NCBI GenBank assembly: GCA_013298715.1
Contig: JAAFIQ010000010.1
Location: forward strand, 62,001-126,000
Direction of reading: 5' to 3'
Source: Bacteroidota bacterium
GTDB taxonomy: Bacteria > Bacteroidota > Bacteroidia > B-17B0 > Aurantibacillaceae
Length of the DNA: 64,000 nucleotides
The notes below the pieces were generated by a model. That model searched no databases. It was not told the origin of the DNA and saw only the letters and a program-made list of their open reading frames with translations. Position numbers and translations under genes: made by a program. Positions within the stretch are counted from its first letter, which is position 1. Each line of letters opens with the position of its first letter. Positions 25,633 through 29,857 of this stretch are shown here, in pieces.

Positions 25633-26740
25633 CTAAACACTTTGCTGCAATTGAGAAAAATAAACAGCTTCCATTCTTGCAACATTTTGTTTTATATCAA
25701 AAAACTCTTTTACCCTTAAAAAACTGTTTTGTGCATTTGCTTTTCTCGCCTCAGCATTAAGCCAATAATATTCCATACAATTAAAAATGCTTTCTACTTC
25801 TGTTGTTGTTATTAACCCTAAACTACTGTTCGGAATCAAATCTTTAAACCCTTCTGCGTTACTAACAATCACAGGCACTTTGCAAGCCATGGCTTCGGCA
25901 ATACTTACACCAAAACTTTCGTATTCAGAAACGTTTATTAGTACATCAAATTGGTTTAAATAAAAAGGAATTTTTGTGTTCTCTACTTCGCCAACAAAAA
26001 CAACCTTATCCAATAATCCTAATTTTTCCGCTTGATTTACTAAATCAGCTTTTAATGAACCATTTCCAATCAAATGTAATTTTATTTTTGATGTGCTATA
26101 CTTTTTAGCTAATAAGTAAAACGCATCTATTACTCTATCAATATTATAAACCGATTCAAAATATTTTGTACAACCAAACACGAACGCATCTTTATTTTGG
26201 TCGATTGTAACCTGTGCATAAAAATTCTCTAAATCAACACCAAAAGGAATTATGGTACATGTCTTTTTAGTTAACCCATTTATTTCTTTTTCTAACAAAC
26301 TAGAAGTAGCACAAATGTTTGATGCTTTATAAAACACAAATTTTAAAATTAATTTGTGTAACAAACTTTTTCTAGGAAATTCTAAAGCATCGCCCCCCCC
26401 AAACCGATACAATTAAAGGGCTAAAGGTAGTTAAAGCCCCTAAAAGCCCATAGCTGGTTGCGTAATGCGCGTGTACAATGCTTGGTTTAAATTTATAAAG
26501 AATGTATAAAAGTTTGGGTAATGCAAAAAGATAACACAGTTTTTTAAAAACACCTAACTTACTTTTACTTAAAGGTTTATGTAAACAAGTAACATTAGGT
26601 GCTGCAGAAAACCAAGTTTTATTGCTTTTATTTAAAGAGAAAATGCCAATTTCGAAACCTTTGCTAGCCATACTACTTGCCCATTTTTGCGTGTGTGGCG
26701 AATTAATATCCGCTAAAAATAAAATCCTGAGGTGTTTCAT
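25633..26740 (-). pseudogene. GT4-family glycosyltransferase, frameshifted at a G8 tract
   Basis: The start (MKHLRILFLADINSPHTQKW) and the middle and end belong to one GT4-like transferase, but the reading frame shifts inside a run of eight G (minus strand; plus-strand 26393-26400). With seven G the protein reads SVWGGDALEFPRKS and spans 368 residues, the family norm. Conserved parts are FKPSIVHAHYATSYGLLG in the N-terminal domain and, in the C-terminal Rossmann domain, ESFGVSIAEAMACKVPVIVSNAEG with the EX7E-type Glu residues. Such enzymes transfer sugars to lipid, O-antigen or exopolysaccharide acceptors. A mononucleotide tract in a surface-glycan gene is typical of slipped-strand phase variation; a sequencing or assembly error is the main alternative. 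Confidence 0.8.
26393..26400 (-). repeat. G8 homopolymer tract inside the glycosyltransferase gene
   Basis: Eight consecutive C on the plus strand, G on the coding strand, at the exact position where the reading frame breaks. Long G runs are very rare in this AT-rich window; the only other one noted is a G7 in the gap at 8174-8180. A change of one unit restores the frame. Confidence 0.9.
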
Positions 26741-26892: not shown

Positions 26893-26925
26893 TTGGGTGA
26901 TTTTTAACTAGCCATTGGTATTAAT
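26893..26925 (+). promoter_or_regulatory. ECF-type promoter of the sigma factor gene (copy 1)
   Basis: TTGGGTGATTTTT (26893-26905), 11 bp, GGTATTAAT (26917-26925). The same two boxes with identical spacing occur at 27551-27583 ahead of the peroxiredoxin-like gene. The pattern suits an ECF sigma factor recognising its own promoter. Transcription probably starts near 26931, about 22 nt before the ATG. Confidence 0.75.
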
Positions 26926-26952
26926 CTTTATAGTAATTTAATAACCCAAACC

Positions 26953-27504
26953 ATGTCTATAAATAATCAAAGCGATAAAGAAACCTTAAATGGCTTAAAA
27001 TCTAAAGACAATAAAGCGTATGAGATTTTGTATAAATTTTATTACCCTTCGGTAAAAAATTTTATTTGCAAAAATAATGGTAGTGTTGATGATGCAAAAG
27101 ATATTTTTCAAGAAACAATTATAGTGTTGTTGGAAAAAGTACCAACAGATGATTTTAATTTAACCTCCTCGTTAAAAACATACATATTCGCAATTAGTAG
27201 CAATTTGTGGTTGAAACGTTTACGCGATTCTAAAAAAATGGTGAAAACAGAATTAAGCATTTATGAAAAATACTTAAACGATTACGAAGAGGTTGAATTA
27301 GACAACTCATTCAGTAATAGGCTTGCAAAGGTTTACAGAACAATTACAGGTAAATGCAAAACATTATTACACGCCATTTTTTATGATGAAAAAAATATTG
27401 AAACAGTAACAAAAGAATTTGGTTATACTAATAAACACAACGCTCAAAACCAAAAATACAAATGCTTGGAGCAAGCAAGGCGGGGCGAAGAAAATTTGAA
27501 TTGA
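26953..27504 (+). CDS. ECF-family RNA polymerase sigma factor
   Basis: 183 residues. Region 2 is recognisable: AYEILYKFYYPSVKNFICKNNGSVDDAKDIFQETIIVLLEKV followed by TSSLKTYIFAISSNLWLKRLRDSKK, the DNA-melting and -10 binding helices. Region 4 (LLHAIFYDEKNIETVTKEFGYTNKHNAQNQKYKCLEQAR) is weaker but has the expected helical pattern. No anti-sigma factor gene (FecR-like or zinc-binding) is adjacent, so control may be transcriptional or by degradation. The promoter motif is repeated before the peroxiredoxin-like gene downstream, so those genes are likely its regulon. A terminator at 27515 separates them. Confidence 0.88.
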   Translation: MSINNQSDKETLNGLKSKDNKAYEILYKFYYPSVKNFICKNNGSVDDAKDIFQETIIVLLEKVPTDDFNLTSSLKTYIFAISSNLWLKRLRDSKKMVKTELSIYEKYLNDYEEVELDNSFSNRLAKVYRTITGKCKTLLHAIFYDEKNIETVTKEFGYTNKHNAQNQKYKCLEQARRGEENLN

Positions 27505-27514
27505 ACAAAAAATT

Positions 27515-27540
27515 AAAAGCGAAATAAAAAATTCGCTTTT
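27515..27540 (+). terminator. Terminator of the sigma factor gene
   Basis: AAAAGCGAA (27515-27523) pairs with TTCGCTTTT (27532-27540), followed by further T. It ends the sigma factor transcript 11 bp before the second promoter. Confidence 0.85.
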
Positions 27541-27550
27541 TTTTATTTGG

Positions 27551-27583
27551 TTGGGTGATTTTTATACAAGTTATGGTATAAAT
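27551..27583 (+). promoter_or_regulatory. ECF-type promoter of the peroxiredoxin-like gene (copy 2)
   Basis: TTGGGTGATTTTT (27551-27563), 11 bp, GGTATAAAT (27575-27583). The -35-like box is identical to 26893-26905, and the -10-like box differs only at one position (GGTATTAAT versus GGTATAAAT). The matching spacer length makes chance unlikely. Confidence 0.75.
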
Positions 27584-27610
27584 AAATATAAACCCATTAA
27601 ACTAAAAATT

Positions 27611-28246
27611 ATGAAAGCAAACATTAAACGCGTAAGTACCTTAATTGTAGTAGTAGCAGCTATTTTAACAACATCTGCATTCACACCAAAAAAAGAAAAA
27701 AGCAAAATGAAAGTACAAGAAAAACAAGTAGCACCTACCTTTTTAATAAAAGATGTAAATGGTGCAAGTGTAGATTTAAAAAACTACAAAGGAAAAAAAG
27801 TAATGATTACATTTTTTAGAAATGTTGGTTGCCCTGTTTGCAACTTGCGTTTCAATGAACTAGAAAAGCAGGCAGATTATTTTAAACAAAAAGGGATGGT
27901 ATTATTAGCAATATACGAAAGCAGTGCTGAAAACATGAAAAAATATTTAGAGAACGATGTGCCTTATGCTTTAATGATACCAAACCCCGACCAAAGCTTA
28001 TACAACCAATATGAGTTGGACAGAAGTGGTGGTAAAATGGTGAAAGGCATGTTTAACGGTGCCATTAAAAAAATGAAAGCAGGCAAAAAATTATTTAAAA
28101 ACAAAATTAAACAAGATGGTAATAACAACCGTATTGAAGCTGAGTTTTTAATTGATGAAAACGGAGTAATTACAAAAGCGCATTACGGCAGGTTTTTAGG
28201 AGATTATATTTCTATAGATGACATTAAGAAATTTTTGAATTACTAA
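27611..28246 (+). CDS. Exported peroxiredoxin-like (redoxin family) protein with CPVC motif
   Basis: 211 residues from the ATG at 27611; reading from 27551 would include the promoter. MKANIKRVSTLIVVVAAILTTSAFT is a signal peptide, so it acts in the periplasm. The domain follows the thioredoxin/AhpC-TSA fold: APTFLIKDVNGASVDLKNYKGKKVMITFFRNVGCPVCNLRFNELE, where GCPVC is the redox pair, then EAEFLIDENGVITKAHYG. It belongs to the PRX-like2 type redoxins. It is controlled by a promoter matching that of the upstream ECF sigma factor and is 32 bp upstream of a small CPMC protein, a likely partner or electron donor. Confidence 0.8.
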   Translation: MKANIKRVSTLIVVVAAILTTSAFTPKKEKSKMKVQEKQVAPTFLIKDVNGASVDLKNYKGKKVMITFFRNVGCPVCNLRFNELEKQADYFKQKGMVLLAIYESSAENMKKYLENDVPYALMIPNPDQSLYNQYELDRSGGKMVKGMFNGAIKKMKAGKKLFKNKIKQDGNNNRIEAEFLIDENGVITKAHYGRFLGDYISIDDIKKFLNY

Positions 28247-28278
28247 AAATCACAACTTAATTTAACCAACCATCAATC

Positions 28279-28503
28279 ATGAAACAATCATTAAATGTGT
28301 GGGGAATAAAAGAATATGAGGGCGACGGTGTAAGTTGCCCCATTTCTCCCGCTAACTTGCCTTGGTACAAAAAACTTGCACTTACTTTTTTTAGATTTGG
28401 TATTTGTCCAATGTGCATCACCATGAGTTTAGTTTACAAAGTAGGACAACTTTTTAGATACAAGAAATCTACACCAACTCTCCGTACAAATCAAAATCGG
28501 TAG
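28279..28503 (+). CDS. Small membrane-associated CPMC protein
   Basis: 74 residues, no family recognised. A central hydrophobic helix (KLALTFFRFGICPMCITMSLVYKVGQLF) carries a CxxC pair in the sequence CPMC, and another Cys lies in GVSCPIS. The location after a periplasmic redoxin, in an ECF-controlled transcript, suggests a membrane thiol carrier or a regulatory subunit, but this is inference. The last 35 bp overlap the 3' end of rimO on the opposite strand. Confidence 0.6.
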   Translation: MKQSLNVWGIKEYEGDGVSCPISPANLPWYKKLALTFFRFGICPMCITMSLVYKVGQLFRYKKSTPTLRTNQNR

Positions 28504-29782
28504 CTTCTGTAATTTTTGTATTTACAAAAGTTCCAGGACTTAAATAAATGTCGTTGTTGGCTTTTATTAAAACTTCGTTATCTACATCTGGGCTATCAAA
28601 CTCTGTGCGGCCGCAGTAGTAGTCGCCTTCTTTTCTATCAATTAAAACTTTATACGTGTTTCCTATTTTTTTCTGGTTTAGTTGAAACGAAATTTCTTGT
28701 TGAATAGCCATTACTGCATCTGCACGTTGCTTTTTTACCTTTGCTTTTACATCGTCCTTTAAATTAAAGGCATGGGTATTTTCTTCGTGCGAATAAGTAA
28801 AAATTCCGAGGCGTTCAAATTTAGTTTCTTCTACCCAGCTTAACATTTCTTCATGATCTTTTTCCGTTTCGCCTGGATAGCCTGCTATTAAAGTAGTTCT
28901 TATAGCAATACCTGGAATAGTATCTCTAATTTTATTTACTACATCAATTGTTTTTTGCTTAGTAATGCCACGGCGCATGCTACTCAACATGTTATCACTA
29001 ATATGTTGCAAAGGCATATCTAAATAATTACACACATTACTTCTGTTTTTAATCACATCCAATACATCTATTGGGAAACCGCTTGGGAAAGCATAGTGCA
29101 AACGTATCCATTCAATTCCGTTTACATCTGCTAGCTTATCTATTAAATTGGCGAGTTCTCTTTTTTTATAAATATCTAATCCGTAATAGGTTAAATCTTG
29201 TGCAATTAATAACAGCTCTTTTGTTCCTTTTGCAGCAAGGGTTTTAGCTCTATTCACCAACTCATCTATTTCTACACTTATATGTTTACCTCGCATTAAA
29301 GGGATGGCACAAAAACTACAAGGTCTATCGCAACCCTCGCTAATTTTAAAGTAGGCATAGTGCTGTGGTGTAGTAAGCAGGCGCTCTCCAACCAACTCGT
29401 GCTTATAATCTGCTTTTAAGGTTTTTAAAATTTTTGGTAACTCGCGTGTTCCAAAGTAAGCATCCACTAGCGGAATTTCTTTTTCCAAATCCGCTTTATA
29501 GCGTTCGCTTAAGCAACCTGTTACGTAAACTTTTTCTACAGCACCTTCTTTTTTTGCTTCAACATAACGTAAAATTGTATCTATACTTTCTTGCTTTGCA
29601 TTTTCAACAAAGCCACATGTATTTATAATTACAATGTTGTGGTCGTCGCTAGTGCCTTCGTGTTCTACATCAAATTTATTTGCTTTAAGCTGTCCCATTA
29701 ATACTTCGCTATCAACTAAATTTTTACTACAGCCAAGCGTAACAACATTTACTTTGTTCTTTTTTAAGGTCTTTGTCTTCAT
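28469..29782 (-). CDS. rimO: Ribosomal protein S12 methylthiotransferase RimO
   Basis: Radical SAM enzyme that methylthiolates Asp88/89 of ribosomal protein S12. 437 residues from the ATG at 29782; the longer in-frame start at 29848 overlaps the divergent promoter region and adds an atypical leader. VVTLGCSKNLVDSEVLMGQL is the UPF0004 domain with its first cluster Cys; EGCDRPCSFCAIPLMRGKHIS holds the radical-SAM CxxxCxxC; the C-terminal TRAM domain ends DFDLYGELV. The DYLDMPLQHISDNMLSSMRRG segment favours RimO over MiaB. Confidence 0.95.
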   Translation of the reverse strand: MKTKTLKKNKVNVVTLGCSKNLVDSEVLMGQLKANKFDVEHEGTSDDHNIVIINTCGFVENAKQESIDTILRYVEAKKEGAVEKVYVTGCLSERYKADLEKEIPLVDAYFGTRELPKILKTLKADYKHELVGERLLTTPQHYAYFKISEGCDRPCSFCAIPLMRGKHISVEIDELVNRAKTLAAKGTKELLLIAQDLTYYGLDIYKKRELANLIDKLADVNGIEWIRLHYAFPSGFPIDVLDVIKNRSNVCNYLDMPLQHISDNMLSSMRRGITKQKTIDVVNKIRDTIPGIAIRTTLIAGYPGETEKDHEEMLSWVEETKFERLGIFTYSHEENTHAFNLKDDVKAKVKKQRADAVMAIQQEISFQLNQKKIGNTYKVLIDRKEGDYYCGRTEFDSPDVDNEVLIKANNDIYLSPGTFVNTKITEATDFDLYGELV

Positions 29783-29857
29783 AAAATAGAAATACAAAGT
29801 TAGGTAATTTTTTCTGCGATTGAATTGCTTAAAAAATCGTAACTTCAAATCGTTGGT

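Follow-up and report, generated by a model that had tools for sequence, protein, structure and literature searches.

Comparison with described systems

CorE of Myxococcus xanthus (PMC3107203) senses copper through a Cys-rich C-terminal domain, has no recognised anti-sigma gene in its operon, and reaches metal genes via a shared promoter sequence. The last two features recall the ECF sigma factor described here. However, the latter ends after region 4 and has no Cys-rich C-terminal extension, which places it outside the CorE type. Another point of comparison is provided by the Buf1 bufferin clusters, which combine a sigma factor with NrsF, the bufferins being copper-binding peptides (PMC12452194). 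One of the relatives of our locus, L063, has an EGKCG/HvfA-like precursor, MNIO, DUF2063, and DoxX behind the same motif, but no NrsF was seen in the scanned loci, the other partner proteins differ, and no bufferin genes stand beside the module studied here. An ECF-type promoter motif has also been described in the Bacteroidota for Flavobacterium psychrophilum SM6; in contrast to ours, it has a CGT box, serves type IX secretion genes, and, in the consulted portion of the source (PMC9723704), contains neither GGTGA nor GGTAT. A literature search of openly accessible journal papers, whose outcome does not prove absence, found no description of our motif, of the small protein CPMC, or of the peptide reported below. 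With the module, a Bacteroidota sigma subfamily gains a probable link to thiophilic metal stress and a recognition sequence by which any genome can be searched, and two conserved microprotein families (CPMC and the peptide) are added that are new to the annotation libraries used.

Organization of the module

The stretch of DNA analyzed (64 kb, referred to here as the window) contains, on the plus strand, a sigma factor gene, a terminator-like hairpin, a second promoter, a redoxin gene, and the CPMC gene, in this order. The sigma gene (26953 to 27504; 183 aa) matches the overall ECF profile (TIGR02937, 54.8 bits, cut-off 42.9) and sigma region 2 (Sigma70_r2, 31.9 bits, cut-off 24). For region 4 no Pfam match was listed; TIGR02937 spans residues 22 to 174 and the C-terminal end is well conserved. 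With 42.6 bits against a curated cut-off of 126.4 (TIGR02985), the protein does not belong to the FecI-like Bacteroidetes sigma factors. It is 68 to 79% identical to the first six full-length relatives. Two cysteines, C135 and C171, are the only conserved ones in the sigma alignment, where they appear in 31 of 31 rows. We rejected them as a metal sensor because six of these rows are outgroup sigma factors that have them too. The gene is followed by a predicted intrinsic terminator (27515 to 27540, plus strand), and by eye a similar hairpin lies 3' of the sigma genes of L006, L008, and L009, and a weaker one in L007 (relatives are labeled L for loci and G for genomes).

Two predicted ECF-type promoters share the pattern TTGGGTGATTTTT-N11-GGTAT(T/A)AAT on the plus strand. 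One (26893 to 26925; TTGGGTGATTTTT, 11 bp, GGTATTAAT) precedes the sigma gene and is conserved in alignment A4, while the other (27551 to 27583; TTGGGTGATTTTT, 11 bp, GGTATAAAT) precedes the redoxin-CPMC operon. The positions, the single-base difference between the boxes, and the equal 11-bp spacers are exactly those given in the first-pass annotation. At both promoters the core, GGGTGAT...GGTATNAA, ends 28 bases upstream of the next ATG. Given where the two sites stand, the sigma factor is predicted to drive its own gene as well as the redoxin-CPMC operon, as that annotation had already proposed. The redoxin (211 aa) starts at ATG 27611 and ends at 28246; the first start called by the ORF program, TTG 27551, falls within the promoter. 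The CPMC gene (28279 to 28503, plus strand; 74 aa) has a 35-bp tail-to-tail overlap at its 3' end with a minus-strand ORF (28469 to 29848).

By eye, the module has minus-strand neighbors: ORFs of the glycosyltransferase type and a RimO/MiaB-like gene. As noted before, no anti-sigma gene adjoins the sigma gene that could be recognized by eye among the window neighbors or in a family search. One glycosyltransferase-like gene (25633 to 26740, minus strand) consists of two overlapping ORFs split at an eight-C/G run near 26392, which could reflect a frameshift, an assembly error, or a phase-variable tract.

The explanation that we favor, with a probability of roughly 0.6, is that of an ECF subfamily that recognizes this motif, has two targets here, and serves a response to thiophilic stress. 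In this Bacteroidota subfamily, the sigma factor would recognize GGGTGAT-N14/15-GGTATNAA, and its two targets in this genome would be its own terminator-ended gene and the operon in which CPMC follows a secreted redoxin of the SelL-like type. The sigma factor would be activated by thiophilic stressors such as copper, mercury, silver, or arsenic, or by the disulfide stress that they bring about; positive autoregulation would then raise the extracytoplasmic CxxC redox protein together with CPMC, and these two would serve to repair or buffer thiols or else to deal with metal. The sequences show the motif, its tie to the subfamily, the layout of the operon, the conservation of CPMC and its link to the sigma gene, and the exchange of the redox gene; that this sigma factor binds the motif, that soft-metal or thiol stress is the signal, and what CPMC does (as an effector or as a regulator of the sigma factor) are inferred.

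The promoter motif in the genome and in related loci

Scanning the 64-kb window for TTGGGTGATTTTT-N11-GGTATNAAT with up to three mismatches returned only the sites at 26893 and 27551, and dinucleotide shuffles of the window gave a mean of 0.02 matches (largest value, 1) against the two observed. We extended the scan, as the first-pass annotation had suggested, to the genome of origin (4.01 Mb; 4,011,927 bases in 46 contigs). The 30-bp core with up to two mismatches had five matches, the two window sites, both exact, and three more with two mismatches each; the latter were rejected as regulon members, being at the level of the reversed core (two matches). A looser core, GGTGATN{13,17}GGTAT, gave 10 matches versus 4 for the reversed control. 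All eight matches other than the window sites lie inside ORFs, so no further regulon members were found in this genome and its regulon appears, on this evidence, to consist of two units.

To follow the motif outside this genome, we used 12 loci picked by the sigma protein alone in one scan of genome contigs. Their sources include Flavobacterium, Chitinophaga, Flavipsychrobacter, two Bacteroidetes assemblies near the group of the window, and Kapaibacterium; L013 and L015 come from the same assembly, in which the sigma gene is divided between these two contigs. At no more than one mismatch, the motif was present in 10 of the 12, with 15 of its 16 sites at module genes and one stray (L011, position 762) inside a long ORF. 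The reversed pattern was never found in these loci, and 20 Markov resamples gave a mean of 0.05 (largest value, 1). The two loci that lack the motif, L016 and L017, are distant. The motif is thus tied to the sigma subfamily, as would be expected of the conserved recognition site that had been claimed for the window. In the assembly of L013 and L015 (G345), the sigma gene is cut over two contig ends (L015:4001-4336 and L013:120-437), and on one of them it continues into a repetitive peptide (SNIGHPFSF, GQSFSS), which may reflect a repeat where the contig breaks.

A sigma profile (A5) run on 395 genomes of the class matched at 1e-20 in 174 of them. Within the best 30 sigma loci, the top 10 all had a site no more than 100 bp from the sigma gene and the other 20 had a single stray one, roughly 300 bp off and on the strand opposite to that in which its locus is read (reversed control, 0 in 31 loci), a split that is partly circular because the profile had included five motif-picked loci and three picked via the module of the window or CPMC; only G084 and G117 in the top 10 lie outside the profile. 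Two high-scoring sigma genes, L102 (204.7 bits) and L103 (208.5 bits), had no site within reach. The bare short exact pattern occurred at 58 places in 49 of the 395 genomes (reversed control, 21), and a sigma gene of the subfamily adjoins only 15 of these places. By itself, this pattern is not specific in other genomes.

Over all the loci studied, 38 sites stand 17 to 64 nt before a start codon (median, 28), with a core spacer of 14 (21 sites) or 15 (17 sites). These figures bear on the possibility that a separate repressor or activator uses the two window sites as operators, which would then not be promoter elements of the sigma factor. Boxes of seven and eight conserved bases could indeed be read by another protein, but near-constant spacing at such distances from the starts is promoter geometry, and the sites track this sigma subfamily across loci, all of which makes operators highly improbable. 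Recognition by the sigma factor, the reading that we prefer, does not bring autoregulation with it in every member of the subfamily: in L064 (YceI), L063 (bufferin-like), and L106 (Emticicia), it is the target gene, rather than the sigma gene, that has the site in front of it. Upstream of CPMC in L059 and L115 we observed a related promoter that keeps the first box but has GATTAA instead of GGTATTAA, perhaps a shifted recognition sequence. Some T-rich-looking sites (L066, L068, and L069), located inside or at ORFs in stretches without a sigma gene of the subfamily, were treated as chance.

In a tree of 31 sigma proteins, six CPMC relatives that belong to other families form a group with the window protein (support, 100/99). 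The presence of CPMC changes 4 times along the tree versus 10.5 in shuffles. High identity across families combined with a rare and patchy presence suggests horizontal spread. Searches of plasmids retrieved five records for the sigma factor, the best with 41.6% identity on a conjugative Emticicia plasmid, and no match for CPMC in 72,556 records at E 0.01.

An exchangeable redox gene

The redoxin belongs to the AhpC-TSA/redoxin superfamily (AhpC-TSA, 62.6 bits, cut-off 26), has its GCPVC active site at residues 73 to 77 and an N-terminal segment that looks like a signal peptide by eye, and matches ResA in the PDB (E 5e-8). It also matches the SelL-related redox proteins (NF040769) over residues 40 to 207, including the CPxC pair. 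The proteins of L012 and the Emticicia plasmid match this family too. However, the three scores (72.5, 71.6, and 54.2 bits, respectively) fall under the curated cut-off of 120, and we therefore consider these proteins relatives of the family and not members.

Among the 16 loci with CPMC, a SelL-like redoxin is present in only two (the window and L012). Another 10 (L006 to L011, L013, L056, L058, and L113, the last with a split gene) have a thioredoxin-like protein with WCxVCK, and four (L059, L114, L115, and L116) have no redox gene between the promoter and CPMC. To judge from these loci, the redox gene is the exchangeable partner and CPMC the constant one. The WCxVCK protein has weak matches in Pfam (best, 0.00058, to thioredoxin, in five of seven members) and weak thioredoxin matches in the PDB (best E, 0.0013). 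In Flavobacterium soyangense (L007:4619-5502), a gene resembling the metallo-beta-lactamase fold, with its own copy of the motif, lies between the sigma and thioredoxin-like genes. Two of the carriers found are cultured strains, F. soyangense CGMCC 1.13493 and F. paronense CECT 8460.

CPMC, a conserved small protein

In the alignment of the CPMC family (13 rows), C20, C43, and C46 (window numbering) are invariant in the rows covering them, and the family has a FFRFG.CP.C core. The reading frame has a pN/pS of 0.19 (11 sequences) versus 1.37 and 1.97 in the other frames, indicating purifying selection, and none of the 13 members has a Pfam or NCBIfam match. These data support a real, conserved, and undescribed family, in line with the initial impression of a small protein outside known families, and the comparison of syntenic loci proposed at that point found both motif and small gene conserved among relatives. 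The gene for a 74-residue protein was correctly recognized in the first-pass annotation. The membrane association also claimed there is putative: the best 19-residue hydropathy is a borderline 1.64 with an arginine inside, and we dropped the description of CPMC as clearly membrane-spanning.

Profile searches revealed how rare CPMC is. Of the 395 class genomes, 6 have strong matches; at the level of the family the counts are 4 of 87, with 1 of 201 for the family of G114 and 5 of 150 for that of G290. Weak matches in G296 and G057 (E of about 7e-4, with ca. 0.3 expected by chance over 395 genomes) were dropped; these two genomes also have no sigma match at 1e-20. A sigma gene of the subfamily lies within about 1 kb of CPMC in all 10 distinct genomes with strong matches, with the qualification that it is an internally deleted remnant in G706 (L115) and is cut by a contig end in G345. 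Seven of the 10 (G115, G114, G290, G706, G738, G759, and G796) are new relative to the sigma search. The remnant (L115:3426-3656), located after CPMC, has 76 codons and keeps the start and the region-4 end, the middle being gone.

This constancy beside the sigma gene is compatible with an effector and equally with a regulator, and CPMC (plus, where present, the peptide of 26 to 29 residues described below) could be the cognate anti-sigma factor or sensor of the sigma factor instead of one of its effectors. It would account for CPMC being constant while the redox gene varies, for CPMC and sigma genes being direct neighbors in L012, L059, and L116, for the three conserved cysteines, and for the lack of a family-level anti-sigma gene adjoining the sigma gene. 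On the other hand, the CPMC gene of the window belongs to a separate unit from the sigma gene, sister sigma genes (the YceI, HMBD, and bufferin-like loci) have no CPMC, and the structure model is poor (pLDDT, 64), so that we regard a regulatory role as quite unlikely. For ECF sigma factors that lack a known anti-sigma factor, a very small protein that stays constant as a partner and conserves three cysteines provides a testable answer.

Aligned to the redoxins with hhalign, CPMC gave 87.2% probability (E 3.9e-6) over just 19 columns (KKxxLTFFRxxxCPxC), versus 0.4% and 0.3% in control alignments, and in this active-site segment the redoxin and CPMC of the window have 9 of 16 residues in common. 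CPMC may either descend from the active-site segment of a redoxin or copy it. Two AlphaFold2 runs, based on 9 and 13 sequences, gave poor models (pLDDT of 59.1 and 64.0, respectively), too poor to name a fold or to compare folds with the redoxins, and a Foldseek search of the PDB with the CPMC model returned one match, at E 4.2.

A second microprotein

Just 5' of CPMC, 13 of the 16 CPMC loci have an unannotated ORF of 26 to 29 residues (for example, L006:5157-5234, L007:6010-6087, L008:4296-4373, and L056:202-279, the last on the minus strand) encoding a hydrophobic peptide with the consensus MKKxTKIILCxVSVxLTxxCIYHFFG. It starts with GTG in L010 and takes a divergent form in L059, L115, and L116, and it is absent from the interval before CPMC in the window, L058, and L012. 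Its frame also shows purifying selection, with a pN/pS of 0.28 (10 sequences) versus 1.09 and 1.21 in the other frames. A search of 12 genomes gave clear matches only in three with CPMC (G345, G115, and G382), with nothing better than E 0.297 in the genome of the window and nothing below 0.02 in seven sigma genomes without CPMC. This peptide gene of most relatives and the terminator between the two units of the window had both escaped the first-pass annotation.

More speculatively, CPMC and this peptide might form a new kind of pair of cysteine-bearing microproteins that detects disulfide stress or thiophilic metals and directly controls the ECF sigma factor, with the redox enzyme as an exchangeable cartridge and with CPMC as a sensor that arose from a redoxin's active-site segment. 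We consider this scenario improbable.

Metal context and the stress signal

No metal-resistance gene was recognized beside the module in the window. The sister loci provide a metal context, with MerTP (254.6 bits, cut-off 180) and GDCCVxC (107.8, cut-off 40) in L014, YceI in L064 (151.9), and marginal HMBD matches in L065 (23.8 against a cut-off of 23.6) and, just under it, L101 (23.0), where DUF6789 also appears. By eye, G345 has arsenic-type genes next to its split sigma gene, and L012 has metal-binding domains. On the Emticicia plasmid, the motif lies exactly in front of a gene for a peroxiredoxin-like protein and of one for DUF4833; the same run of genes includes thioredoxin, an FAD oxidoreductase, and GDCCVxC.

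These neighborhoods can be read in another way, namely, as a general oxidative- or disulfide-stress sigma module in which the metal genes of the sister loci are later passengers. Redox proteins are indeed the commonest partners, a redoxin or a WCxVCK protein being present in 12 of the 16 CPMC loci; in addition, L067 has a thioredoxin and L059 an AhpD-core protein. Yet four CPMC loci do without a redox gene between promoter and CPMC, and among the motif targets of sister loci are an HvfA-like RiPP precursor, HMBD, and YceI, which are not peroxide enzymes. We consider a general oxidative module unlikely, though the most credible of the alternatives. The response to thiophilic stress remains our preferred reading, and because sister loci hold mercury, copper-RiPP, and heavy-metal-binding genes, soft-metal or thiol stress seems a likelier signal than plain peroxide stress. 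Of the undescribed redox-stress module first proposed for the window, the undescribed part holds for the CPMC family, while the redox-stress label covers too little, given the metal genes of sister loci and a redoxin that can be exchanged.

A further metal-related neighborhood is that of L063 (2501-4922, minus strand), where genes for an HvfA-like precursor, an MNIO enzyme, DUF2063, and DoxX stand behind the sigma motif. The precursor has the HvfA-type KCGExKCG domain (23.9 bits, cut-off 19.5) and stays under the cut-off of the full HvfA model, and the locus also matches MbnB/TglH/ChrH (333.7 bits). It is likely a copper RiPP cluster under the control of the sigma factor.
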